A DNA stretch of 64,000 nucleotides from Halosimplex pelagicum (GTDB lineage Archaea; Halobacteriota; Halobacteria; Halobacteriales; Haloarculaceae). Shown piece after piece: positions 81 to 54,548 of this stretch (the stretch's first letter is position 1; each line of letters starts with the position of its first letter). Below the pieces are notes generated by a model that saw only the letters and a program-made list of their open reading frames with translations, was not told the origin of the DNA and searched no databases. The stretch is from positions 1,674,001-1,738,000 of the forward strand of contig NZ_CP058909.1 of assembly GCF_013415905.1 (NCBI RefSeq). The letters run 5' to 3'. Made by a program: the position numbers and the translations under genes.

Positions 81-2801
81 ATGACGAACGACACACACGA
101 GAGGGGAGAGACGGAACGAACAGACACCGCGGCCGCCGACGCGTCGGCCGACGGCGACGACATCGAGGTCGCGGACGCCGAGACGACCGGCGCGGAACGC
201 CTGGCCTCGGACGGGGGCGACGCTCCCGAGGTCCGCGACGACGAGGCCGCCGAGGCCCTGGCGTCGATGGACCGGCGGGACTACCTGAAGGCGTCGCTGG
301 CCGCGGCGGCGATGGCGGGTCTCGGTAGCGCGGCGAGCGGGACGGCGGCCGCCGAGACGGCCGACACCTCGAAGACCGTCGACGAGCGCATCCAGGAACA
401 CCGGGCCGGCGACCTCGAAGTGGTCGTCGAGAACCCCGACGGCTCGGCGGTCTCGGGCGCGGAGGTCTCGGTCTCCCAGCGGGAGCACGACTTCGGCTTC
501 GGGACGGCGGTCAACGCCGACACGCTGATCAACCAGTCCGGCGAGGGGGACAACTACCGGACGTACATCCCGGAGCTGTTCAACAAGGCGGTGATGGAGA
601 ACCGCCACAAGTGGGACTTCTTCGAGAACGAGCAGGGGCTGGCCGACGAGGCCACCGACTGGATCCTCGACCAGGGGCTGGACATGCGCGGGCACGTCTG
701 CCTGTGGGGTCGCGAGGACGTGGCCGCCATCCCGTCGGACATCAACACGGCCATCGACAACAACGACGCCGAGACGATCCGCGACCGGTCGATGGCCCAC
801 ATCGAGGAGATCATCACCCACTACGGCGACGACTTCACCGAGTGGGAGGTCGTCAACGAGGCGATGCACGCCTACCAGATGCAGATCGGCGTCTACGGCG
901 ACCAGATCGACACCGAGGAGCCCTGGACCGGCGAGGTCGTCCCGTGGACCTCGCAACTCCTGGCGGACTGGTACGACGAGGCCGAATCGGTCATCGACGA
1001 GAACGGCTACGACCTGGGCATCGCGGTCAACGACTTCAACCAGTTCCCCTACGCCTACACCGACAGCCGCTACGAGTCGGAGATCGACCACATCAACTCC
1101 AACGCCGTCCAGCTCGACACGGTCGGGCTGCAGGCCCACGTCGCCGCCCGGCAGGGCGAGTTCAACAGCAACGACGACCCGGACGGGCGCATCGACGCCG
1201 CCACCGTCGCCGACGAGATGAACAAGTGGGCCGACCACGGCGCGCGGCTGAAGATCACCGAGTTCGACACCTACAACGGCGACGACTGGGCGGACGACGA
1301 GGAGCGCGCTCAGATGCTGGAGAACTATCTCCGGGGCGCCTTCTCCCACCCCGGCTGCGACGACTTCATCATGTGGGGCTTCTGGGACGGCCGCCACTGG
1401 GAGAGCGAAGCGCCGCTGTTCTACGACGACTGGTCGCGGAAGCCGGCCTACGACGTGTGGACCGGGCTGGTCTACGACGAGTGGTGGACCGACGACAGCG
1501 GGACGACCGACGGCTCGGGCGCCTACGCGACGACCGCCTACCTCGGCGACCACGAGGTCACCGTCAGTACCGACAGCGCGGAGACGACCGAGACGGTCTC
1601 GGTGTCGAACGCCTCGGGCACGACGACGGTCACGGTCACCGTCGAGGGCGACGGCGGCGAGACGGGGGACACTCAGCCGCCGTCGGTCCCGGAGAACCTC
1701 TCGGTGTCGTCGACGACCGACTCGACGGTCACCGTCACCTGGGACGGCGTCTCCGACAACGGCTCCTCGGGGCTCTCGGAGTACGTCGTCTGGGTCGACG
1801 GCAGCGAAGACCAGACGGTCGGTGCGGGGATGACGACGGCGACGGTCGAGGGGCTGTCGGCGGAGACCTCCTACGAGATCGGCGTCACGGCGGTCGACGG
1901 CGCGGGCAACGAGTCCGACGCCGCGACGGTGTCGGCGACGACCGCCGCCGGCGACGACGGCGACGACGGGACCGACGAACCGGCCGGCGACGCGCTGGTC
2001 GTCCACGAGTTCGACGGCGGGGCGTATCCCGGCTCGAACGACCTGGGCAACTGGGCCGACGGCGGCAGTTTCGCCAACGGGGGCGGGAGCGGCGAGGTCG
2101 CCGACGGCGCGCTCCGGCTGGCGTACGACAACGCCGGCTGGATGGGCTCGAACGTCGCCCGGTCGGTCGCCGACCGACCGACGCTGCACCTCCGCGTCCG
2201 CGGCGACTCGGGCGGCGAGGAGAGCGACTTCACCGTCCAGGTCGGCGGCGCGAGCGACGTGCTCGCGAACGTCACCGACGACGCCATCGGCACGAGCTAC
2301 TCGACCGTCTCGGTCGACCTCGACGCGATGGGCGCCGACCTGGAGAACCCCCAGTCCGTCCGGCTGAACTTCTGGCAGGGCGCCTCGGGCGCCGTCGAGA
2401 TCGACCGCATCGCCTTCGGCGGCCCCGGCAGCGGCGACGACTCGGGTGACGGGTCCGACGACGATTCGGACGGGTCGGACGGTTCTGACGGTTCTGACGG
2501 CTCCGATGGCTCTGACGGCTCCGACGGCGACTCGGGTAGCGGCGGCGACCTGATCGCGGAGATCGACCCGAGCGCGACCGCGGCGTCGGTCGGCGAGCGG
2601 GTCACCTTCCGCGTCACGGACACCACCGACTCCGGGCACTGGATCGACTCGCTGTCCTGGAGTCTGGGCAACGGCGAGTCCGCCGGCGGCTGGTACGCCG
2701 AGACGACGTACGACTCGGCGGGCACCTACACGGTCGAACTGACCGCGACGAACAACGAGGGCGCGACGACCACCGACGCGGTCGAGATCACCGTCTCCTG
2801 A
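81..2801 (+). CDS. Secreted GH10 endo-1,4-beta-xylanase, multidomain
   Basis: 906 aa. Predicted secreted endo-beta-1,4-xylanase acting on xylan outside the cell. An acidic N-terminal stretch of about 63 residues precedes a twin-arginine signal (DRRDYLKASL, then an Ala-rich segment). The GH10 catalytic domain spans roughly residues 115-475. The expected acid/base is Glu260 (VVNEAM) and the nucleophile Glu394 (KITEFD), spaced normally for family 10. After it come a small beta-rich segment, a fibronectin type III domain (about 545-635), the CBM-like module shared by the cluster (637-780), a Ser-Asp-Gly linker and a PKD-like domain (823-906). Secretion of folded enzyme through Tat is normal in haloarchaea. 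The family call is strong; fine substrate specificity is inferred from the family. Confidence 0.93.
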   Translation: MTNDTHERGETERTDTAAADASADGDDIEVADAETTGAERLASDGGDAPEVRDDEAAEALASMDRRDYLKASLAAAAMAGLGSAASGTAAAETADTSKTVDERIQEHRAGDLEVVVENPDGSAVSGAEVSVSQREHDFGFGTAVNADTLINQSGEGDNYRTYIPELFNKAVMENRHKWDFFENEQGLADEATDWILDQGLDMRGHVCLWGREDVAAIPSDINTAIDNNDAETIRDRSMAHIEEIITHYGDDFTEWEVVNEAMHAYQMQIGVYGDQIDTEEPWTGEVVPWTSQLLADWYDEAESVIDENGYDLGIAVNDFNQFPYAYTDSRYESEIDHINSNAVQLDTVGLQAHVAARQGEFNSNDDPDGRIDAATVADEMNKWADHGARLKITEFDTYNGDDWADDEERAQMLENYLRGAFSHPGCDDFIMWGFWDGRHWESEAPLFYDDWSRKPAYDVWTGLVYDEWWTDDSGTTDGSGAYATTAYLGDHEVTVSTDSAETTETVSVSNASGTTTVTVTVEGDGGETGDTQPPSVPENLSVSSTTDSTVTVTWDGVSDNGSSGLSEYVVWVDGSEDQTVGAGMTTATVEGLSAETSYEIGVTAVDGAGNESDAATVSATTAAGDDGDDGTDEPAGDALVVHEFDGGAYPGSNDLGNWADGGSFANGGGSGEVADGALRLAYDNAGWMGSNVARSVADRPTLHLRVRGDSGGEESDFTVQVGGASDVLANVTDDAIGTSYSTVSVDLDAMGADLENPQSVRLNFWQGASGAVEIDRIAFGGPGSGDDSGDGSDDDSDGSDGSDGSDGSDGSDGSDGDSGSGGDLIAEIDPSATAASVGERVTFRVTDTTDSGHWIDSLSWSLGNGESAGGWYAETTYDSAGTYTVELTATNNEGATTTDAVEITVS

Positions 2802-2905: not shown

Positions 2906-4552
2906 ATGCACTCCGACGACCCACCACGACAGGCACAGGACGGCGAACAGCGACGCGACTCCGCGGACGACCGCGGTCGGTCCGGCGGTAGCGGCGACGC
3001 CCCGAGCGGCGGGGCCGGCGGCACGCGGCGGCGGACGGTCCTGCGCGGCCTCGGTGGCGGGGTCGCGCTGGGCGCGGTCGGCACGCTCGGCGCGGCGGTG
3101 ACGACGGCCGCCGGCGCCTCCTTCGGCGACGGCGTCAACCTCCAGCCGTCCTATTTCTGCGACGGCGACCAGGACCTGGGCTACGACCTGATGAGCGAGT
3201 ACCCGGACATCGAGACGGTCCGGATCGAGATCGAACCGTTCTCCTTCGGCGAGGTCGCGACGACCGTCGAGGACGCCAAGCGCTGGATCGACGAGGCCGC
3301 CGCCCACGGCCTGAACGTGATCGCCACGTACCACCACTACCCCGACAACGGGTCGGCCGACGCCGCGGCGCTCCAGAACGCCGCCGAGTTCTGGGCCGAG
3401 CACTACGAGACGCTCTCGGCCGACACCGACATCACGGTCAACATGATGAACGAGTGGGGCAACCACCAGGTGACCGCCGACGAGTACGCGTCGGCGTACG
3501 ACGAGGCGATCGGCACCGTCCGCTCGGAGACGAGCTACTCGGGGCCGATCGTCTGCGACGCGCCCGGCTGGGGACAGGGCACCTATCGGCTGGCCGACGC
3601 CGTCGAGATGATCGACGACGACGACCTGATCCTCTCGGCGCACGTCTACCCCAGCGCCTGGAACGCGACGACCGGCCAGAACCTCGTCCCCGAGGATCTG
3701 GACGTGCTCGACGAGACGAGCTACCCCTGCATGATCGGGGAGTTCGGCAACTACGCCAACTCGACGGGCGCCGACTGGTCGGCCATCGTCGACTACGCGA
3801 GCGAGCTGGGCTGGCCGGTGATCGGCTGGGCCTGGAACGGCGACGGCTCGAACGACCCGATGAACATGGCCGACCCCTACTGGGGCGACGACTGCTCGGC
3901 CGACAGCTACGCGACGAGCGACTACTTCCCGGTCGTCTACGAGAAGCTCGGCGACGGCGGGACCGCGACGGACTCGCCCACAGACGAGCCGAACACGCCG
4001 ACCCCGACGGACGAACCGAGCACGCCCACAGACGAGCCGGAGACGCCCACTCCGACGGACGAGCCGGACACGCCGACCCCGACGGACGAGCCCGATACGC
4101 CGACGGACACGCCGGCGGCGGACGCGCTGGTCGTCGACGACTACGACGGCGATCCGGGCTGGGCCAGCCACCGCAACGACCTCGGGCAGTGGTGCGGCGC
4201 CGGCTCCTTCGAGAACGGCGGCGGCGAGGAGACGGGCGGCGCGCTGGTGCTGGAGTACGACGACGGCGGCTGGTTCCAGAGCCAGATCAACCGCGACGTG
4301 AGCGACTACGACGACCTCGTGATCCGCGTGAGCGGCGCCTCGGGCGGCGAGGAATCGGAGGTGCTGTTCGACATGGGCGGCGTGCGGACGATGCTCGCCG
4401 ACGTGACCGACGACTCGATCGGCACGAGCGCGACGGACGTACGCGTCGACATGGAAGCGGCCGGGATCGACCGGTCGTCGCCCTCGGTGCGACTGAACTT
4501 CTGGCAGGGCGGCAGTAGCACCCTCGAGATCGAGGAGGTGCGACTGGAGTAG
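2906..4552 (+). CDS. Secreted GH5-like glycoside hydrolase with C-terminal CBM-like module
   Basis: 548 aa. A twin-arginine signal (TRRRTVLRGLGG) is followed by a (beta/alpha)8-type glycoside hydrolase domain at about residues 75-350. Clan GH-A catalytic glutamates are visible at Glu183 (MMNEWG) and Glu279 (MIGEFG). This is a cellulase/mannanase-type enzyme; beta-mannanase is possible because the domain is short. A Thr-Pro-Asp-Glu linker (about 353-405) leads to the shared CBM-like module (406-548). It begins 104 bases after the xylanase gene on the same strand. Endoglucanase versus mannanase cannot be decided from sequence alone. Confidence 0.87.
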   Translation: MHSDDPPRQAQDGEQRRDSADDRGRSGGSGDAPSGGAGGTRRRTVLRGLGGGVALGAVGTLGAAVTTAAGASFGDGVNLQPSYFCDGDQDLGYDLMSEYPDIETVRIEIEPFSFGEVATTVEDAKRWIDEAAAHGLNVIATYHHYPDNGSADAAALQNAAEFWAEHYETLSADTDITVNMMNEWGNHQVTADEYASAYDEAIGTVRSETSYSGPIVCDAPGWGQGTYRLADAVEMIDDDDLILSAHVYPSAWNATTGQNLVPEDLDVLDETSYPCMIGEFGNYANSTGADWSAIVDYASELGWPVIGWAWNGDGSNDPMNMADPYWGDDCSADSYATSDYFPVVYEKLGDGGTATDSPTDEPNTPTPTDEPSTPTDEPETPTPTDEPDTPTPTDEPDTPTDTPAADALVVDDYDGDPGWASHRNDLGQWCGAGSFENGGGEETGGALVLEYDDGGWFQSQINRDVSDYDDLVIRVSGASGGEESEVLFDMGGVRTMLADVTDDSIGTSATDVRVDMEAAGIDRSSPSVRLNFWQGGSSTLEIEEVRLE

Positions 4553-4697
4553 GCGCGCTGTCCCCCGCTCCCGTTCCCCGGGGTTTCCACGCCCCAAATC
4601 CACGCGTTCCGGGTCGCGCCGCGCGGCGCGGCCCGCCCGCCGTCGGGTCCGTTCGACCCGGCACCGTTAGCGTTTTGCAAAAATTATTTCTCTATTC

Positions 4698-4709
4698 GTT
4701 AACTTTAAC
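4698..4709. promoter_or_regulatory. AT-rich promoter region with GTTAA-CT-TTAAC palindrome
   Basis: The 184-base gap before the gene at 4737 ends in a conspicuously AT-rich stretch (about 4674-4736) within G+C-rich surroundings. It holds a perfect inverted repeat GTTAA-CT-TTAAC 27 bases before the start codon. The position suits an archaeal promoter or operator close to a short leader. It suggests this gene has its own promoter rather than being read only from upstream. The regulator is unknown; a TrmB-type sugar regulator is a guess. Confidence 0.4.
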
Positions 4710-4736
4710 AACTATCGTTCCGATATGTAGTTTGCA

Positions 4737-6614
4737 ATGGTCGACAGACGAACCGTACTGAAGGGGGGTATCGCATTCGGAAGCCTGGGCCTGGCCTCGA
4801 CAGTGGTGGGCCAGGAGTCCGCGCTGGTCGTCCACGACTTCGACGGGGGGACCTATCCCGGGTCGAACGACCTGGGCAACTGGGCCGGCGCGGGGAGTTT
4901 CGCCAACGGCGACGGGAGCGGGGAGGTCGCCGACGGCGCGCTCCGGCTGGAGTACGACAACGCCGGCTGGTTCGCGAGCAACGTCCGCCAGTCGGTCGCC
5001 GACCGCGACCGGCTGACGATGCGAGTCCGGGGGGACTCCGGCGGCGAGGAGAGCGACTTCCTGGTCGACGTGGGGGGCGCCAGGGACCTGCTCTCGAACC
5101 TCACCGACGACGCCATCGGGACGGAGTGGTCGACGGTGTCGGTCGACCTCTCGGCGGCGGGCGGGGACCCGGAGAACCCGAAGGCCGTGCGGATGAACTT
5201 CTGGCAGGGCGCCTCGGGCGCCGTCGAGATCGACCGGATCGCGTTCACGAGCGACGGCGAGGCGCCGCCCTCGACCGCGACGGCGACGCCGACGCCGATG
5301 GACCCGACGCCGACGGACACGCCGGACGACGAGACGCCCACGCCGACCGATACGCCGGACGACGACACGCCTACCGACGAACCCGACGACGACACGCCGA
5401 CGGACGCCCCCGACGACGGCGGGAGTACCTGGGACGTGCCGTTCCCCGACCGGCCGCCCGAGCCCGACTCGCTGCCGGCGGCCTCGGAGATCACCGAGGA
5501 CACGACGGTCGCGGAGCTGTACGAGGGCTTCGACGACCCCTACTACGTGCCGCGTAGCTTCACCGACTACCTGCCCGGCGAGACGGGCTCGAAGCTCCAG
5601 GAGTGGACGGACACCGAGAAGGCCGAGGAGTTCGGCTACGACGTGAGCGCCGTCGAGAACAACGTCGGCGACGGCTCGCTGACGCTCGGCCAGCTCGGCA
5701 CGCAGGCGCTGCCGTACGTCAAACAGCTCGCCGAGAACGACTTCCCCGCGCACGCGACGGTGAAACTGCTGCCGCGGCTGGCGCTGCTGCCCGACGAGGA
5801 GGAGGACCCCGGCGTCCACGACGAGCCGTCGGCCGTCTGGGACGAGACCGCGGGGCCGACGGCCGCGACGAACGACCCCGACCAGTTCGTCCAGGACCGC
5901 TGGCCGACCGACGCCCGGACCTACCAGCCGATGGAGGTCCGCGTGCGCGACCGCGCTCACGACCAGCCCGAGTACGACGACAGCCGCGAGTGGGCGAGTT
6001 CCGGGAGCATCTCCGACTCCTTCTACAACGACGAGACGAACCCGGTGTTAGACGCCGCCGCCGAGAAGGTCCACCCGGTGACGGGCGAGTCCCTCGGCGG
6101 CGACGGCTTCACCGCCAACGCGCCGATGGAGGCGGAGATCCGCATCCACGAGACCGGCGGGGGCTACATGAACCAGTACATCAAGCTCACGAACACCAGC
6201 GAGGTGCCGTACTTCCAGGACGCCGCCGTCATCTGGTGGCTCGGCCCGTCGGGCGACGCCTCGAACCTCTCGGACGGCCACTGGAACAACCCGCACCGCC
6301 CGAGCGCGTCGCTGGGCCACCCCCAGCGCGACGTGATCGAGGTGAACCACCCCGACTACGACGAGCTGGCCGTCTACGCCGTCCGGCTGGCCAACCACGA
6401 CGAACCGTACCACATGCGGACGATCTACCCGGGCCAGAGCGTCGCCATGGAGATCGGGACGCCCCGCGACGGCAGCGCGTGGTCGAGCAGTAGCGATCGC
6501 CAGGACCTCGTCGACACGATGCTCGACTCGCTGCACGTCGAACTGGAGACGAACCTGAACCGCAACGACCCGATCATCGACGCCATCGACCTGACGTACC
6601 GCGTCCCGAACTGA
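4737..6614 (+). CDS. Secreted protein: N-terminal CBM-like module plus unrecognised C-terminal domain
   Basis: 625 aa. A short twin-arginine signal (DRRTVLKGGIAFG) is followed directly by the CBM-like module at about residues 28-175. This reverses the order seen in its neighbours. A Thr-Pro-Asp linker (about 180-225) leads to a domain of about 390 residues (235-625) that I do not recognise. That domain is rich in Trp, Tyr, His and Asp/Glu (for example GGGYMNQYIKLTNTSEVPYF, AVIWWLG and EPYHMRTIYPG), consistent with a beta-rich extracellular fold. Gene context and the attached module suggest a role on plant polysaccharide. No catalytic residues can be assigned. Confidence 0.85.
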   Translation: MVDRRTVLKGGIAFGSLGLASTVVGQESALVVHDFDGGTYPGSNDLGNWAGAGSFANGDGSGEVADGALRLEYDNAGWFASNVRQSVADRDRLTMRVRGDSGGEESDFLVDVGGARDLLSNLTDDAIGTEWSTVSVDLSAAGGDPENPKAVRMNFWQGASGAVEIDRIAFTSDGEAPPSTATATPTPMDPTPTDTPDDETPTPTDTPDDDTPTDEPDDDTPTDAPDDGGSTWDVPFPDRPPEPDSLPAASEITEDTTVAELYEGFDDPYYVPRSFTDYLPGETGSKLQEWTDTEKAEEFGYDVSAVENNVGDGSLTLGQLGTQALPYVKQLAENDFPAHATVKLLPRLALLPDEEEDPGVHDEPSAVWDETAGPTAATNDPDQFVQDRWPTDARTYQPMEVRVRDRAHDQPEYDDSREWASSGSISDSFYNDETNPVLDAAAEKVHPVTGESLGGDGFTANAPMEAEIRIHETGGGYMNQYIKLTNTSEVPYFQDAAVIWWLGPSGDASNLSDGHWNNPHRPSASLGHPQRDVIEVNHPDYDELAVYAVRLANHDEPYHMRTIYPGQSVAMEIGTPRDGSAWSSSSDRQDLVDTMLDSLHVELETNLNRNDPIIDAIDLTYRVPN

Positions 6615-6743: not shown

Positions 6744-8648
6744 ATGACACACGACCACACCAGCGAACGGACCGACGCATCGACAGCCGACCGAACCGAC
6801 GCAGCGACCGGCGACCAGACCGCCGAGGGCCGAACGGGCGACACCGCCGGTGACCGCGCTGGCGACTCCTCGGGCGGCCACGCCGACGGGATCGTCCGCC
6901 GGGTCGACGCCGTCTCCCGGCGGAACTTCCTGCGGGCGGCCGGGGGCGCGGGCGCCGCGACGGCGCTCGGGCTGGGCATCACCGGCAGCGCCGCCGCCGA
7001 CGGCATCCCGACGCCCTGGCTCCACCGCGACGGCAACCTGATCCGCGACCCCAGCGACAACGAGGTGATCCTGCGGGGGGTGAACGTCCCCGACGCCAAG
7101 CGGATGAACGCCAAGGAGTTCCGCCCGGACGCCGACGAGACCATCGCGCGCGCCACGAACGCCGACGAGGGGTGGTACTCGCGGATCGTGCGCCTCCCGA
7201 TCCAGCCCACCGACGTGGGCGGTCACGACACCGGCGGCATCCCGCCGGTCCCTGGATTCTCCCAATCTCAGCTGGAGAGCTACGTCGAGAACCACCTCCG
7301 CCCGGCCGTCGACACCTGCGCCGAGCGGAACGTCTACTGCATCGTCGACTACCACCGCCACCGCGGGCAGGACGACGAACACGCCTACGACAGCGAGGGC
7401 ATCGACGAGGAGCTCACGATGTTCTGGGAGACGGTGGCCCCGGAGTTCGCCGAGGACTCGAACGTCCTCTTCGAGGTGTACAACGAGCCGATCCACCCCT
7501 ATCAGGGCCACTACGAGCCCAACGTCGACGTAGCGCCGGACGACGACGAGGCCATCCAGACGTGGAACACCTGGAAGGAGGCGGCCCAGCCGTGGGTCGA
7601 CACCATCCGCGAGCACGCCCCGCAGAACCTGATCCTGATCGGGTCGCCCCGGTGGAGCCAGTGGACCTACCAGGCGCCGCGCAACGAGTTCGACGGCGAC
7701 AACCTCGCCTACACCGGGCACGTCTACGGTCACCAGAACCTCCGGCCGCTCTCGAAGTACTTCGGCGAACCGGCCGAGGAGGTGCCCGTGTTCGTGACCG
7801 AGTTCGGGTGGGGGGAGCACGGCGCCGACTACATCACCGGGACCGCCGACGACGAGGGTCAGGAGTTCGTCGAGTTCTTCGCGAACTACGACGTCCACTG
7901 GCAGGTCTGGTGTTTCGACAGCAAGTGGCGGCCAGCGATGCTCGACCACGACTGGTCGGTCAAGGCGTACGGCGAGTTCTGGAAGGACGAACTCGCCGTA
8001 CACCGCGACGACGACGTGCCCGCCGGCGAGGTGGATACCGGCACCGACGACGACACGCCGACGGACACGGCGACGCCGACCGCGACGCCGACGGCCACGC
8101 CGACCGCGACGCCGACGGCCACACCCACCGACACGCCGACGCCCAGCGGTCCCACGTCGACGCCGACACCGACAGACGCGCCGAGTACGCCCATCGACAC
8201 GCCGGCGAGCGATGCCCTCGTGGTCAACGACTACGACGGCGACCCCGCATGGTCGGCCAACCGCAACGACCTCGGCCAGTGGTGTGGCGCCGGCTCCTTC
8301 GCCAACGGGTCCGGCGAGGTCTCCGACGGCGCGCTCGTGCTGGAGTACGACGACGGCGGCTGGTACCAGGAGCAGATCAACCGGGACGTGTCGAGCTACG
8401 CGACGCTCGTCCTCTCGGTCGCCGGCGCGAACGGGGGCGAGGCGTCGGAGATCGGCTTCAGTATGGGCGGCGCGAGCGGGATGCTCGCCGACGTGACCGA
8501 CGACGCGATCGACACTTCGTTCTCCGAGGTGCGGGTCGACATGGAGTCGGCGGGCGTCGACCGGACTTCCTCGTCGCTGTCGCTGCGGCTCAACTTCTGG
8601 CAGGGCGGGAGTAGCACGCTGCGGATCGGCGGCCTCCGACTGGAGTAG
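6744..8648 (+). CDS. Secreted GH5 cellulase-like enzyme with C-terminal CBM-like module
   Basis: 634 aa. An acidic N-terminal stretch precedes a twin-arginine signal (VSRRNFLRAAGG). The GH5 domain covers about residues 88-415 and begins in a way typical of endoglucanases (LHRDGNLIRD, VILRGVNVPD). The acid/base is Glu248 (VYNEPIHP) and the nucleophile Glu353 (FVTEFGWG). A Thr-Pro-Ala linker (about 435-488) connects to the shared CBM-like module (490-634). It closely resembles the GH5 enzyme at 52.9-54.5 kb, which carries PKD domains instead. Predicted role: extracellular endo-beta-glucanase; the exact substrate is inferred. Confidence 0.9.
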   Translation: MTHDHTSERTDASTADRTDAATGDQTAEGRTGDTAGDRAGDSSGGHADGIVRRVDAVSRRNFLRAAGGAGAATALGLGITGSAAADGIPTPWLHRDGNLIRDPSDNEVILRGVNVPDAKRMNAKEFRPDADETIARATNADEGWYSRIVRLPIQPTDVGGHDTGGIPPVPGFSQSQLESYVENHLRPAVDTCAERNVYCIVDYHRHRGQDDEHAYDSEGIDEELTMFWETVAPEFAEDSNVLFEVYNEPIHPYQGHYEPNVDVAPDDDEAIQTWNTWKEAAQPWVDTIREHAPQNLILIGSPRWSQWTYQAPRNEFDGDNLAYTGHVYGHQNLRPLSKYFGEPAEEVPVFVTEFGWGEHGADYITGTADDEGQEFVEFFANYDVHWQVWCFDSKWRPAMLDHDWSVKAYGEFWKDELAVHRDDDVPAGEVDTGTDDDTPTDTATPTATPTATPTATPTATPTDTPTPSGPTSTPTPTDAPSTPIDTPASDALVVNDYDGDPAWSANRNDLGQWCGAGSFANGSGEVSDGALVLEYDDGGWYQEQINRDVSSYATLVLSVAGANGGEASEIGFSMGGASGMLADVTDDAIDTSFSEVRVDMESAGVDRTSSSLSLRLNFWQGGSSTLRIGGLRLE

Positions 8649-10573: not shown

Positions 10574-10783
10574 GAATCGCTCCCGGACTGTCGAACTGGT
10601 CGCCCCGAACGAACGGTCTCACGGGCCGCCGATCGCTCGTTCGCGATCGCCGTAGCCGAGACTCGGTGAGCGGAATCACCGTTTTACAGGCCCGAACGGC
10701 CGAACGAGCTGGCTGAAAATATAGTGAAGAAGTTTTTCCACCAGAAATTATTTCAAGGGGTGGGCCACAGTAGGGCACGGATC

Positions 10784-12952
10784 ATGGTAGTTAATCACGA
10801 GGGTAACGAGGCGGACGGCGAGTCGACGAGCGGGGTCTCGCGTCGTCGGTACGCGCAGGTGATCGCGGGGCTGGGTGCGGCGGGGCTGGCCGGCTGTCCG
10901 AGCGAGAGCGGGTCGACGGCGACACCGCTCGGGTCGAGCGACGACACGGTGGAACCGATCGAGTCCGAGAACACGGTGGCCGACGGGGCGGAGAACACGG
11001 CGGCGGCGACGGCGACCGACCGCGAGCCGGTCGTCGACACGATCGCCTACGCCCACGCGAACTCGCCGGACGTGTTCGACTGGAACCCGTGGACGCCCCA
11101 GGACAACACCGCCGGCGACCTGTGGATGTCGGACCTCCACGGGCTCCGGAACGTCCACACGACGAACCTCTCCTACAGCGGGACGACGATCCCCACGCCG
11201 CACAAGCCCGATCACGAGGAGATCGAGGTCATGACGTGGATCGAGGGGTGGGAGGTCGAGCCGCCCTACGACTGGTACGACCACCACGACGACCGCTCGG
11301 CGTACTGGTCGGGTGACGCCCACGACGCGGTCGCCCGCGAGAAACACAACCACGTCGAGTTCTTCCAGGCCGGGAACAAGTTCACCGAGGACGCGACGTT
11401 CAACCAGCGCGCCGAGGACCAGTGGACGCTCCACCAGTGGACCGACAAGGGGTCGGTCCCCGAGCAGGAGCCGGACCCGACGGCGCGGAACATCCTGGAG
11501 ACGAACGCGGGGCCGGTCGACGGCGACCCGCCGCTGCATCCGTCGTTCACGGAGCCGTATCTGGAGCAGTACCGCGACGCGGGCTCGCGCGACCGGGCGA
11601 CGTCGGTGACCGACGAGCTGAAGAGCGACCGCGTCTCGCTCGACCGCATCGCCCTGTCGGGCGGGACAGACGAGTACCTCGCCGGGTCCGGCCCCTACCG
11701 GCTGAAGTCGATGGACGACGTGGGCTCCGAGCGGATGATCCTCCGGCTCGACCCCGACCATCCCAACGCCGGCCACACCAACGTCGACAAGCTCGCCATC
11801 TACTGGGCGGAGGGCGACCGCGCCCAGACGCTGAAGACCGAGGGCGTACTGGACGTGAACGTCGGGGACGTCTCGCCCGGCGCGTCGCTGAACCGCGAGG
11901 TGCTGCCCGACTACATGCAGGAGTTCACGCGGTGGCTGCGCGCGACCGGCGGGGACATGTGGAAGTTCAACTGGAACAACCCGCACCTCCAGAACCTCTG
12001 GGTGCGGCGCGCGCTGGTCGAAGCGGTCGACTGGAACGCCGTCTCCGCCAACGGCTGGGGCCAGGGCGGCGCCCAGCCGCTCGCGAACGACACGTTCCTG
12101 CTGGACGCCCAGTCGGAAGCGGTCTTCTCCGAGGAGTTCCTCGACGGCCTGCACACCTACTCGCGGGACTCGAACACGGAGAGGGCCACCGAGTACATGA
12201 AGCGCGCGGGGTACAGCAAGCAGGGCGGCCAGTGGGTCGACCCGACGGGTAACTCCGCCGCGATCGACCTGTTCGCCACGTCGACGATCCCCGAACACAT
12301 CCAGGCCGCCCAGACGATCCGGGCGAACCTCGCCAACTGGGGCTTCGGCGTCAACCTCTCGACGCAGGGGTGGTCGACGTGGTCGAACAACCTCGACCCC
12401 AACGGCGGGCTGAACTACGAGTCGTCGCTGTACTGGCACGGCGACCCGTACGTCTTCCAGTACTACCACGACGTGGGCGCCTGGTGGGACGAGACGCTCG
12501 TCGCCGGCAGCCCCACCTCGCCCGACCCGATCGAGGCCAAGCCCGAGGACACCGTCGACACCCAGGGCAAACCGATCGTCCAGCAGGTGCCCGACGAGCC
12601 GGGCGCCTTCGAGGCGCCCGACGAGGCCGGGAAGGCCCCCGATCTGGACAACGCGAGCGAGGTCAACCTCGTCGAGACCGTCAACGCGATCCGCCAGCCG
12701 GGCAACAGCGAGGCCGAGCGCCAGCAGCTCTACCGCACCTGCGCGAAGTACTACAACTTCTACGTCCCCCATTTCCCGTTCCACCAGTACATGCAGGGGT
12801 CGTTCGGCAACGTCCGCGACTTCGACTGGCCGGGCCCCTCGGCGCGGGCGTTCGACTACGAGCATTCCTTCGGCATCGAGAACGTGCTCGTGCTCGGCGG
12901 GATCGCACAGGCCAGCTACGACACCGAGTTCGAACGGCCGGAGGAGGGATAG
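10784..12952 (+). CDS. ABC transporter family-5 solute-binding lipoprotein (orphan)
   Basis: 722 aa from the ATG at 10784; the upstream in-frame ATG adds an unlikely leader. A Tat signal (SRRRYAQVIAG) leads into a lipobox ending at Cys38 (GLAGC), so the protein is predicted to be lipid-anchored on the outside of the membrane. The rest resembles the oligopeptide/oligosaccharide-binding family SBP_bac_5, with typical segments such as NAGHTNVDKLAIYWAEGDRA and LWVRRALVEAVDWNAV. No permease or ATPase gene is adjacent. The next gene is a TrmB-type sugar regulator, so an oligosaccharide ligand is plausible; dipeptides cannot be excluded. Confidence 0.85.
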   Translation: MVVNHEGNEADGESTSGVSRRRYAQVIAGLGAAGLAGCPSESGSTATPLGSSDDTVEPIESENTVADGAENTAAATATDREPVVDTIAYAHANSPDVFDWNPWTPQDNTAGDLWMSDLHGLRNVHTTNLSYSGTTIPTPHKPDHEEIEVMTWIEGWEVEPPYDWYDHHDDRSAYWSGDAHDAVAREKHNHVEFFQAGNKFTEDATFNQRAEDQWTLHQWTDKGSVPEQEPDPTARNILETNAGPVDGDPPLHPSFTEPYLEQYRDAGSRDRATSVTDELKSDRVSLDRIALSGGTDEYLAGSGPYRLKSMDDVGSERMILRLDPDHPNAGHTNVDKLAIYWAEGDRAQTLKTEGVLDVNVGDVSPGASLNREVLPDYMQEFTRWLRATGGDMWKFNWNNPHLQNLWVRRALVEAVDWNAVSANGWGQGGAQPLANDTFLLDAQSEAVFSEEFLDGLHTYSRDSNTERATEYMKRAGYSKQGGQWVDPTGNSAAIDLFATSTIPEHIQAAQTIRANLANWGFGVNLSTQGWSTWSNNLDPNGGLNYESSLYWHGDPYVFQYYHDVGAWWDETLVAGSPTSPDPIEAKPEDTVDTQGKPIVQQVPDEPGAFEAPDEAGKAPDLDNASEVNLVETVNAIRQPGNSEAERQQLYRTCAKYYNFYVPHFPFHQYMQGSFGNVRDFDWPGPSARAFDYEHSFGIENVLVLGGIAQASYDTEFERPEEG

Positions 12953-13127
12953 ACATGTAACGGTCCCGTCGTCGCCGGGCCCGGCGTCCGGTCGGGCGAC
13001 CGGTCCGAAACTCCTTGTCACGAGGTTTCCGGCGGCCGCGACGCGGCGTCGCTCCCACCCTCGCGGTCGCCGGGGCGGCTTCCGCCGAACAACACACGGA
13101 TTACTCGCGAGTGAGAGGTCGATACAA

Positions 13128-14177
13128 ATGGACTCCGACGACGCGGCACTGCGCGAACAGTTGCGGGTGTTCGGGCTCTCGGACAACGAGATCAACACGT
13201 ACTTCGCGCTGCTGGAACTGGGCGAGGCGACGACCAGCGCCGTCGCCGACGAGGCGGGCGTCACCCAGCGGTCGGTGTACAACATCGTCGAGCGCCTCGA
13301 AGGGCGGGGGCTCGTCCGGGTCAACGACCACGTCTCGCCGACGACGATCCGCGCGCTCCCGCCGCGGGAGGCGATGGCCGACATCTCCGAGCGCATCGAC
13401 GCGATGACCCCCGCCCTGGAGGAGCGGTTCACCGAGACCCGGCCCCGGACCTCGGAGATCGAGATGGCGAAATCCCGGCGGAAGGCGCTCAAGAACCTGC
13501 GCGAGGACATCGAGAGCGCCGAGTCGGAGGTGCTGGTCTCGGTGCCGGCGGACGTGGTCCCGGAGATCGAGGACGAACTGCGCGCGGCCCGCGAGCGGGG
13601 GGCGCTCGTGCTCCTGCTGGTCGGCGAGGTCGAGAACATCGACGCGGCGGCCGAGCGCTACGCGGGGCTCGCGACGGTCGTGCGCTGCTGGGGCGACGAG
13701 ATGGCGTTCGCCTACGCCGTCGACGACGAGCGGGCGATGATCGGCAGCCCCGAGGTGTTCGACGGCGCGTACTTCGAAGAGGGCGTCGTCTGGGTGTCCG
13801 AGTGGGGACTGACCGGCGCGGTCATCGCCACGTTCCTCGGCGCCTACTGGCCGTTCCCCTGGGAGGTCCACGTCGCCGACCCGGTCGAGCTACCGGCGAC
13901 CTTCGAGTGGTTCCGCACGGCGACCTTCACCGCAGTCCGTCACCGACGGATGGGGACCGACCTGCGCGCAGCGGTCGAGACCGAATCCGGCGAGCGCGTC
14001 GTCGGGCGCGTCAACGACGTGCGCCAGGCGCTGGTCGACCCCGCGACCAACCAGTTCACGCTGGAGAACGGGTTCGTCCTCGACACCGACGAGGGAACCG
14101 TTAGCGTCGGCGCCTCGGGGGGCTACCTCGAGGACTACCGCGGCACGTCCGTCCGGCTCCGGCCGGTCGAGGACTGA
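13128..14177 (+). CDS. TrmB family transcriptional regulator, full length
   Basis: 349 aa, the usual length for TrmB with its C-terminal ligand domain. The N-terminal winged helix (about residues 8-75) is typical: FGLSDNEINTYFALLELGEA, then AGVTQRSVYNIVERLEGRGL. The middle (about 100-245) resembles the TrmB phospholipase-D-like regulatory domain, and the C-terminal ~100 residues match the sugar-binding beta domain. Known TrmB proteins bind sugars and activate or repress sugar-metabolism genes. It follows the solute-binding protein on the same strand after 175 bases, so that gene is an obvious candidate target. An ACTCGCGAGT palindrome lies about 20 bases before the start. Confidence 0.88.
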   Translation: MDSDDAALREQLRVFGLSDNEINTYFALLELGEATTSAVADEAGVTQRSVYNIVERLEGRGLVRVNDHVSPTTIRALPPREAMADISERIDAMTPALEERFTETRPRTSEIEMAKSRRKALKNLREDIESAESEVLVSVPADVVPEIEDELRAARERGALVLLLVGEVENIDAAAERYAGLATVVRCWGDEMAFAYAVDDERAMIGSPEVFDGAYFEEGVVWVSEWGLTGAVIATFLGAYWPFPWEVHVADPVELPATFEWFRTATFTAVRHRRMGTDLRAAVETESGERVVGRVNDVRQALVDPATNQFTLENGFVLDTDEGTVSVGASGGYLEDYRGTSVRLRPVED

Positions 14178-14208
14178 ACGCGGGACGACGCGGTTCGCGG
14201 TCGCGGCG

Positions 14209-14592
14209 TCACTCGCCGGCGACGGCCTCGACGGCCGCCATCGCCTCAGCCTCGTCGGCGTCCTCGCCGAGCCACTCGTCGGCCCACCCCTCGATGGCGT
14301 CGAAGACCGGACAGAGCGATTCGCCCTTCGCGGTCAGCGAGTAGAACGTCGCCACGGGGGCGTCCTCTTCGAGCCGGCGGTCGACCAGGTCGAGTTCCTG
14401 CAGGTCGTCGAGCACGCGCGAGAGCGTGCGCGAGCTCGCGCCGGTCGAGCGTTTGAGCTCGTTGAACCGCTTCTCGCCCTCCTGGAGGTCGTACAGCACG
14501 ACCAGCCGCCACTGCGAGCCGATCTGTTCGAGGGAGTCGACTACCGGACAGGCCTCGGGGTTCGCCGCTTCGGAGTTCGCGTCGGTCGCCAT
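14209..14592 (-). CDS. HxlR family winged-helix regulator
   Basis: 127 aa. Contains the HxlR pattern: a Cys near the N-terminus (CPVVDSLEQIGSQWRLVVLY), a helix-turn-helix (FNELKRSTGASSRTLSRVL), and a wing followed by YSLTAKGESLCPV. HxlR regulators often respond to redox or reactive electrophiles through the N-terminal Cys, present here. It is divergent from the DoxX gene at 14869, a frequent arrangement for this family, so it probably controls that gene and itself. Confidence 0.9.
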   Translation of the reverse strand: MATDANSEAANPEACPVVDSLEQIGSQWRLVVLYDLQEGEKRFNELKRSTGASSRTLSRVLDDLQELDLVDRRLEEDAPVATFYSLTAKGESLCPVFDAIEGWADEWLGEDADEAEAMAAVEAVAGE

Positions 14593-52880: not shown

Positions 52881-54548
52881 TCACTCGACGACGATTTCGA
52901 CCGTATCGGTCGTCGTCTGCCCGGCGTTGTCGGTCGCGGTCAGCTCGACGGTGTAGGTGCCCGCCGAGTCGTAGCTGTGGGACGCCCACCAGCCCTCGGC
53001 GGTCGTCCCGTCGCCGAAGTCCCAGGCCAGCGCGTCGATCCAGCGGTCGTCGCCGGACGTGTCGCGGGCCTCGAACTTGACGGTGTCGCCGACGGCCGGC
53101 TCGGTCGTGCTCGGTTCGGCCGTCGCGACGGCCTCGGTCTGCTCGGTGACGGTGATCGCCAGCCCGTGAGTCGTCGACTCGCCGGCGTCGTTCGTCGCGG
53201 TGAGTTCGACCTCGTACTGGCCGGGGTCGTCGTACTGGGCGTCGGCCCACCAGCCGTCGCCGGTGGTGCCGTTCCCCAGGTCCCACTCCAGGGTCGAGAC
53301 GTGGCGGTCCGCGCCCGAGGCGTCGCTGGCCTCGAAGTGGACCCAGTCGCCCGCGGTGGCCTGGGTCCGGTCCGGGACCAGCCGCGCGATCGGTTCCGCC
53401 GAACTCTCGGCGAGCCACTGGCGGATGAACCCGCCGTGTTCCTCGGGGGCCGAGCGCAGCGTCCAGTCGTCGGCGCCGCCCTCGCCGGGGGAGTCGAACA
53501 TCGTCGGGGCCCACGAGTCGTCGAAACACCAGGCCGCCCACCCCATGTTGTCGTAGCTCTCGACCCACTCGCGGAAGGGCTGGCCCCAGTCGGTGTTGGT
53601 GCCGTAGTCGAGGTCTTCGCTGTAGGGGTCCCAGCCGAACTCGGTGACGAACACGGGCACGTCCTCGGCGGGCGCGCCGTAGGTGTCGTCGAACTCGTCG
53701 GGCTGGCCGTTGTCCGGGTAGATGTGGGCGGCGTAGACCAGGTTCTCCCCCTCGAAGGGGTACTCCGGGGCGAAGTTCGTCCGGGAGGTCCAGCTCGGCG
53801 ACCCGAGGACGATGGGGGTCTCCGGGGCCTCCTCGCGGACCATGTCCACCCACGGCTGGGCCGTGTCGCGCCACAGCAGCCACTCGTCCTCGGGGCTCTC
53901 GACGCTCTCGCCGTTGTCGCTCCAGAAGATCGGGTACGTCGGTTCGTTGAACAGCTCGTAGATGACGTGCTCGTCGTCGGCGAACGCCGGCGCGACGCCG
54001 CCCCAGAAGTTCCGGACGAGTTCGTCCGGGCTGGTGCCGTAGTCGGCGTCGTCGGCGGCCGCCTCGGTGTAGGGGTGGATGAGGTGGAAGTCGATCATCG
54101 CGTAGGTCCCCCGCTCGCCGAGCAGGTCGACGACCGGGCGGAGCACGTCCGAGACCAGCGCGTCGACGCCCAGCTGGTCCACGTCCCACTTCGTGACCGG
54201 CAGCCGGACGACGTTGGGGTACCAGCCCCGGGCGGGGTCGCTCGCCCAGTCGACGACCTCCGTCGGCGTCTTCGGGTGGTTCCCCTCGACCTCGTAGAAG
54301 CCCATCGACGCCGTCGCGAGGCCGCGCAGCCTGACGGCCTCGCCGTCGGCGTCCCTGACCCACTTGCCGTCGGTGTGCAGTCGAGACGGTACCCCCTCGT
54401 CGGCCGCCGCGGTCCCCGCGACCCCGCCGAGGGCGACGCCGGCCACGCCCGCGCCGGTCGCCCGGAGGACGCCCCGCCGCGTCGCCGTCCGTTCCCGTGT
54501 ACCCGTTCGCCGCTCGCCTGATCCGTTCCGATTGGCATCCGGTGTCAT
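52881..54548 (-). CDS. Secreted GH5 cellulase-like enzyme with two PKD domains
   Basis: 555 aa. A Tat signal (ATRRGVLRATGAGVAGVALG) precedes a GH5 domain (about 52-385) with LHTDGKWVRDADGEAVRLRG, acid/base Glu202 (YELFNEPTYP) and nucleophile Glu303 (FVTEFGWD). Two PKD domains follow (about 390-470 and 475-555), each with a WDLGNGTT or WDFGDGTT core and EVELTATNDAG-type ending. Catalytic-domain similarity to the GH5 protein at 6744 is clear, but the CBM-like module is absent. The adjacent TrmB-type regulators probably control it. Confidence 0.9.
   Translation of the reverse strand: MTPDANRNGSGERRTGTRERTATRRGVLRATGAGVAGVALGGVAGTAAADEGVPSRLHTDGKWVRDADGEAVRLRGLATASMGFYEVEGNHPKTPTEVVDWASDPARGWYPNVVRLPVTKWDVDQLGVDALVSDVLRPVVDLLGERGTYAMIDFHLIHPYTEAAADDADYGTSPDELVRNFWGGVAPAFADDEHVIYELFNEPTYPIFWSDNGESVESPEDEWLLWRDTAQPWVDMVREEAPETPIVLGSPSWTSRTNFAPEYPFEGENLVYAAHIYPDNGQPDEFDDTYGAPAEDVPVFVTEFGWDPYSEDLDYGTNTDWGQPFREWVESYDNMGWAAWCFDDSWAPTMFDSPGEGGADDWTLRSAPEEHGGFIRQWLAESSAEPIARLVPDRTQATAGDWVHFEASDASGADRHVSTLEWDLGNGTTGDGWWADAQYDDPGQYEVELTATNDAGESTTHGLAITVTEQTEAVATAEPSTTEPAVGDTVKFEARDTSGDDRWIDALAWDFGDGTTAEGWWASHSYDSAGTYTVELTATDNAGQTTTDTVEIVVE

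Follow-up and report, generated by a model that had tools for sequence, protein, structure and literature searches.

A conserved accessory domain associated with haloarchaeal clusters for chitin and cellulose/xylan degradation

The window analyzed here, a stretch of 64,000 nucleotides from the 5.2-Mb genome of the haloarchaeon Halosimplex pelagicum, for which Halosimplex carlsbadense and H. salinum are the nearest named relatives found, begins with a cluster of four genes on the forward strand. According to Pfam and module maps, three of them encode a GH10-fn3-CBM-PKD protein (81..2801; GH10, 7e-32) and two GH5-CBM proteins (2906..4552 and 6744..8648; Cellulase, 2e-15 and 1e-30, respectively). 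Between the latter two lies an intact ORF with an ATG start (4737-6614, plus strand), which codes for a protein of 625 amino acyl residues. Downstream of the cluster, on the same strand, a family-5 solute-binding protein is followed by a TrmB-type sugar regulator (10724-14177), and a possible role of this pair is the uptake and control of oligosaccharides. Another GH5-PKD-PKD protein is encoded on the opposite strand (52881-54548), about 45 kb from the cluster.

The protein encoded by 4737-6614 consists of a Tat-type signal peptide (residues 1-26; 4737..4814), a carbohydrate-binding module (CBM, residues 28-172; 4818..5252), a linker that reads as rich in Thr, Pro, and Asp in the translation (residues 173-229; 5253..5423), and a novel C-terminal domain of 396 residues (residues 230-625; 5424..6611), hereafter called the C-domain. 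In comparisons with four close relatives, the C-domain displays dN/dS values of 0.11-0.21, and the ORF is therefore a real gene under constraint. The N-terminus, MVDRRTVLK...VVGQ, is compatible with a Tat signal, as it presents a twin-arginine motif (RRTVLK) and a hydrophobic stretch (MVDRRTVLKGGIAFGSLGLASTVVGQ), and twin-arginine signals can be read in most homologues as well. The first-pass annotation had proposed that the protein is exported by Tat, and the motif and its recurrence in most relatives point in this direction, although the Pfam TAT model gives no score on this protein.

The region preceding the gene (4667..4736) has a G+C content of 30%, which is below that of all 70-base stretches taken across the window in 10-base steps (mean 71%). 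The corresponding regions of the GH10 and GH5 neighbours contain 63-84% G+C, and 4737-6614 is the only one of the four cluster genes preceded by AT-rich DNA. Part of this stretch (TTCGTTAA...) is kept in Halosimplex relatives and, judging from base composition and conservation, it is probably the gene's own promoter. A palindrome, TTTTGCAAAA (4673-4682), is perfect in the window, and a second one, GTTAAC (4698), comprises only 6 bp. Of the AT-rich promoter with a palindrome that had been suggested earlier, the AT-rich stretch is real and conserved, whereas the palindrome is the weaker part, as TTTTGCAAAA is not kept in the Halosimplex relatives.

Residues 28-172 are 78% identical to the module of the GH10 neighbour (1989-2423) and 54 and 48% identical to those of the GH5 neighbours (4121-4549 and 8211-8639, respectively). 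The same CBM-like module is thus common to the four proteins, as had been claimed, and the reversed module order is borne out too, the CBM being N-terminal in the 4737-6614 protein and C-terminal in its GH neighbours. An AF2 model of the CBM, built from the 19 copies present in the window and in loci L001-L004, reaches a pLDDT of 85 and a pTM of 0.81, and its best Foldseek matches are members of CBM30 (2c24; E 2.4e-6, TM 0.67), CBM11 (6r3m and 1v0a), CBM8, and CBM29. Weak Pfam matches to CBM60, CBM30, and CBM_11 stay under the family thresholds, the best E-values with the 19 copies being 0.12 for CBM30 and 0.0042 for CBM_11. The likeness to CBM30 and CBM11, which concerns the N-terminal module and not the C-domain, therefore consists in the same β-sandwich fold, whereas identity is at most 18% and scores remain below the family cut-offs. 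Residues 28-172 are very likely a genuine CBM outside current Pfam coverage and, going by the model, the copies in the four cluster proteins look like a new CBM family with a CBM30/CBM11 fold.

For the C-domain, no acceptable match exists in Pfam, NCBIfam, or PHROGs, and neither a single query nor a 44-row profile finds a match among PDB sequences, in agreement with the earlier statement that this part of the protein belongs to no recognized family. Profiles for GH5, GH10, and GH18 do not match the C-domain either; the neighbours match clearly. Matches to BtrH_N, DUF1830, the metallo-β-lactamase CVI, and the maltose-binding protein GacH are weak and at chance level, and an AF2 model of the C-domain from five sequences has a pLDDT of 37.7. 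In a comparative analysis of how haloarchaea metabolize cellulose (PMC10267330), Halosimplex is listed among the cellulose degraders, and the words 'hypothetical', 'uncharacterized', and 'unknown function' are absent. No description of the C-domain was found in the literature searched, and it constitutes a real, previously undescribed protein family.

Members of this family are encoded in 40 of 392 Halobacteria genomes, distributed over 20 of 86 genera, and in 25 of the 146 genomes of the window's own family. A profile search of a phylum-wide sample finds members in no order other than that of the window. Among plasmids, which are mostly bacterial, the C-domain is encountered only in Halocatena, also when a query from a distant clade is used, and the copy on a Halocatena salina plasmid (WP_247995073.1; 62% identical) is annotated as 'hypothetical protein'. 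Viral contigs contain no relative. As far as tested, which for bacterial chromosomes means a near-exact scan, the family is limited to Halobacteria.

Although identity among homologues drops to 35%, a large set of residues is invariant in all 48 distinct homologues, comprising histidine and acidic residues (H528, H554, H600, E602, D405, and D532), arginines (R521, R531, R550, R561, and R622), aromatic residues (W389, W419, Y558, and Y564), and amides (Q386, Q410, Q530, Q567, N379, N486, N518, and N610). Many of them are concentrated in a GHPQRD motif (residues 527-532; 6315..6332), in a block R550..H554..P557-Y558..R561..Y564-P565..Q567 (6384..6437), and in an H600-x-E602 motif (6534..6542). 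The last residue, Asn625 (6609..6611), with an arginine at position -3, is Asn in 48/48 homologues, which is unusual for a C-terminus. Persistence of acidic and aromatic positions among homologues had been chosen beforehand as a point on which the proposal of a polysaccharide-active protein should stand or fall, and such positions are kept. The high number of invariant polar residues speaks for catalysis, and the C-domain is probably catalytic. Judging from the sequence, the three histidines together with the HxE motif could serve as metal ligands; polar residues of an acidic, halophilic protein may also be conserved for structural reasons.

The genomic distribution connects the C-domain to polysaccharide breakdown. 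Genes for GH18 or GH5 enzymes occur in 40/40 genomes with the C-domain and in 50/352 without it (Fisher p 7e-30, a value inflated by the shared ancestry of the genomes); this class-wide table is used instead of an earlier count in which 32 negatives from the top of the list gave 0/32. In 31 of the 40 genomes, a GH18 or GH5 gene starts at most 10 kb from the C-domain gene. In chitinase clusters (L039-L045, L058, and L060-L063), the C-domain follows CBM5/12 and PKD modules resembling those of the adjacent GH18 enzymes, whereas in GH5/GH10 clusters (the window, L001-L004, L047, L049, L050, L052, L055, L056, L059, and L064) it follows a CBM of the window's type. In a phylogenetic tree with an arbitrary root, the group with the window-type CBM is nested inside the CBM5 groups, with one switch, on a branch supported at 100/100. 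The domain thus stays constant and its binding module is exchanged in accordance with the polymer, a behaviour also known from LPMOs and other auxiliary enzymes. The first-pass annotation had seen a candidate polysaccharide-active protein of a xylanase/cellulase cluster; co-occurrence and substrate-matched CBMs speak for the candidate, but that scope was too narrow, as chitinase clusters harbour the other branches of this family. It is almost certain that the family forms part of polysaccharide degradation.

A small protein of 239-296 residues, combining a window-type CBM with a dockerin-like EF-hand repeat, is encoded upstream of the C-domain gene in loci of the GH5 type (L052:6281-7000, L049:6031-6789, and L048:9518-10285; also L050, L051, and L059), and directly adjoins it in most of them. 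With such a protein nearby in several clusters, with a binding module always in the C-domain protein itself or beside it, and with no catalytic family recognized, one might think of a non-catalytic role, in which the C-domain loosens the polymer like an expansin, promotes adhesion, or acts as a scaffold bringing cells or enzymes to the polymer. This seems rather unlikely, since dozens of invariant polar residues at 35% identity exceed what is usual for a binding domain and since a small clade (L013-L015), situated in GH5/GH10 clusters, has no CBM of its own and nevertheless keeps the C-domain.

Another protein that recurs in the chitinase clusters has a GH18 domain of low score (22-32 bits; L039:7425-8975 (+), L044:2214-3584 (+), and L040:7984-9201 (-)). 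In the chitin cluster of Haloferax mediterranei, four active chitinases (HFX_5036-5039) were reportedly described by Hou and colleagues in 2014. The weak-GH18 protein is probably the 'ambiguous chitinase' of a published study (PMC12343721). Published proteins from clusters with GH18, CBM5, PKD, and an S8 peptidase share this setting with the CBM5 branch of the C-domain family and very likely represent this branch; the passages on them in the respective paper neither delineate a domain nor suggest a function. In several chitinase clusters (L044, L045, L058, and L061), the C-domain gene is adjoined by genes for S8 proteases that carry PKD or CBM5 modules. Their presence would fit a target other than the polysaccharide backbone, for example proteins attached to chitin or lignocellulose, or the sugars released. 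Such a target is improbable, as the C-domain matches no protease or sugar-oxidase family and occurs just as readily in GH5/GH10 clusters, in which S8 genes were not encountered.

If the C-domain is an enzyme acting on the polymer, it might be a non-oxidative one, i.e., a member of a new family of glycoside hydrolases, esterases, or lyases directed at a feature common to chitin and cellulose/xylan, in which acid/base catalysis would fall to conserved Asp, Glu, and His. It shares clusters and CBMs with hydrolases, D405, D532, and E602 are invariant, and new CAZyme families are still being found through their cluster context. However, its GH18 and GH5/GH10 partners already hydrolyze the bonds in question and differ in substrate, and there is no similarity to any hydrolase family, which makes this alternative unlikely.

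Some observations hint at redox chemistry. In L035-L038, a plastocyanin/azurin-type domain is inserted between the PKD modules of the C-domain proteins; all four show the type-1 copper ligand pattern PH...C(T/S)(V/I)HPxxM, and Pfam Copper-bind (PF00127; cut-off 21.2 bits) scores 23.9 bits in L036 and below the cut-off in L035. Three of these genomes belong to one genus and one to another family, and the fusion has one origin on the tree. Among the 40 genomes with the C-domain, 36 lack AA10, and the four genomes possessing it all fall into the most divergent C-domain clade. Fusion and AA10 absence together are no more than suggestive of a redox role, as halocyanins are common in haloarchaea and AA10 is present in three of the four genomes with the fusion. 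Metal or redox chemistry of the C-domain is a tentative assignment, held at somewhat less than even odds. In L057, a halocyanin-like copper protein (13666-14241 (+); Pfam Copper-bind 1.9e-12) is encoded about 4.6 kb downstream of the C-domain gene. This proximity may be due to chance.

As the best explanation, to which we assign a probability of roughly 0.4, the sequence features suggest that C-domain proteins are CBM-targeted, metal-dependent oxidative auxiliary enzymes for insoluble β-1,4 glycans. The protein would be exported by Tat and anchored by its CBM on the polymer attacked by the neighbouring GH enzymes, presumably chitin in most lineages and cellulose, xylan, or mannan in the lineage of the window. 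Its conserved His/Glu/Asp/Arg core would then carry out a chemistry independent of the N-acetyl group, which most likely would be metal-dependent, possibly with copper, and oxidative. A bolder version, which we consider doubtful, is that the family represents new copper or other-metal oxidases, unrelated in sequence to LPMOs, that cleave crystalline chitin and cellulose; they would serve haloarchaea mostly devoid of AA10 and, in one lineage, a cupredoxin fused to them would act as their own electron carrier. The C-domain bears on how haloarchaea, mostly lacking LPMOs, attack crystalline chitin and cellulose. Being one family, found exclusively where GH18 or GH5 is encoded and exchanging its binding module according to the polymer, it offers a single gene to probe. 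If it is an enzyme, it would establish a new CAZy family and supply biomass conversion with a salt-stable tool; otherwise, it would be a new kind of helper domain. The analysis confirms the earlier observation and sharpens its interpretation to that of a conserved, undescribed domain with an accessory part in the degradation of chitin and cellulose/xylan by haloarchaea.

Plastocyanin/azurin domains (PF00127) occur as a separate fused domain in L035-L038 and are absent from the window's protein. Membership in the AA10 LPMOs was considered and rejected: none of 44 family members has a Pfam match to AA10 (PF03067), and hhalign against four haloarchaeal AA10 domains gives a probability of 0.3 and an E-value of 0.22. 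Haloarchaeal AA10 domains begin with His, whereas the 4737-6614 protein reads QESALVV after the Tat signal, and the C-domain begins near residue 230, so that the mature protein has no N-terminal His for a histidine brace. The C-domain further differs from AA10 LPMOs by the absence of sequence or profile similarity, by its C-terminal placement, and by having no Cys in the window's domain. In contrast, proteins with the C-domain resemble AA10 LPMOs in being presumably secreted, in their linkage to CBMs, in their company of chitinases and cellulases, and in their conserved His residues. By this analogy, the C-domain is best read as LPMO-like in its putative role, while not being a member of the LPMOs.
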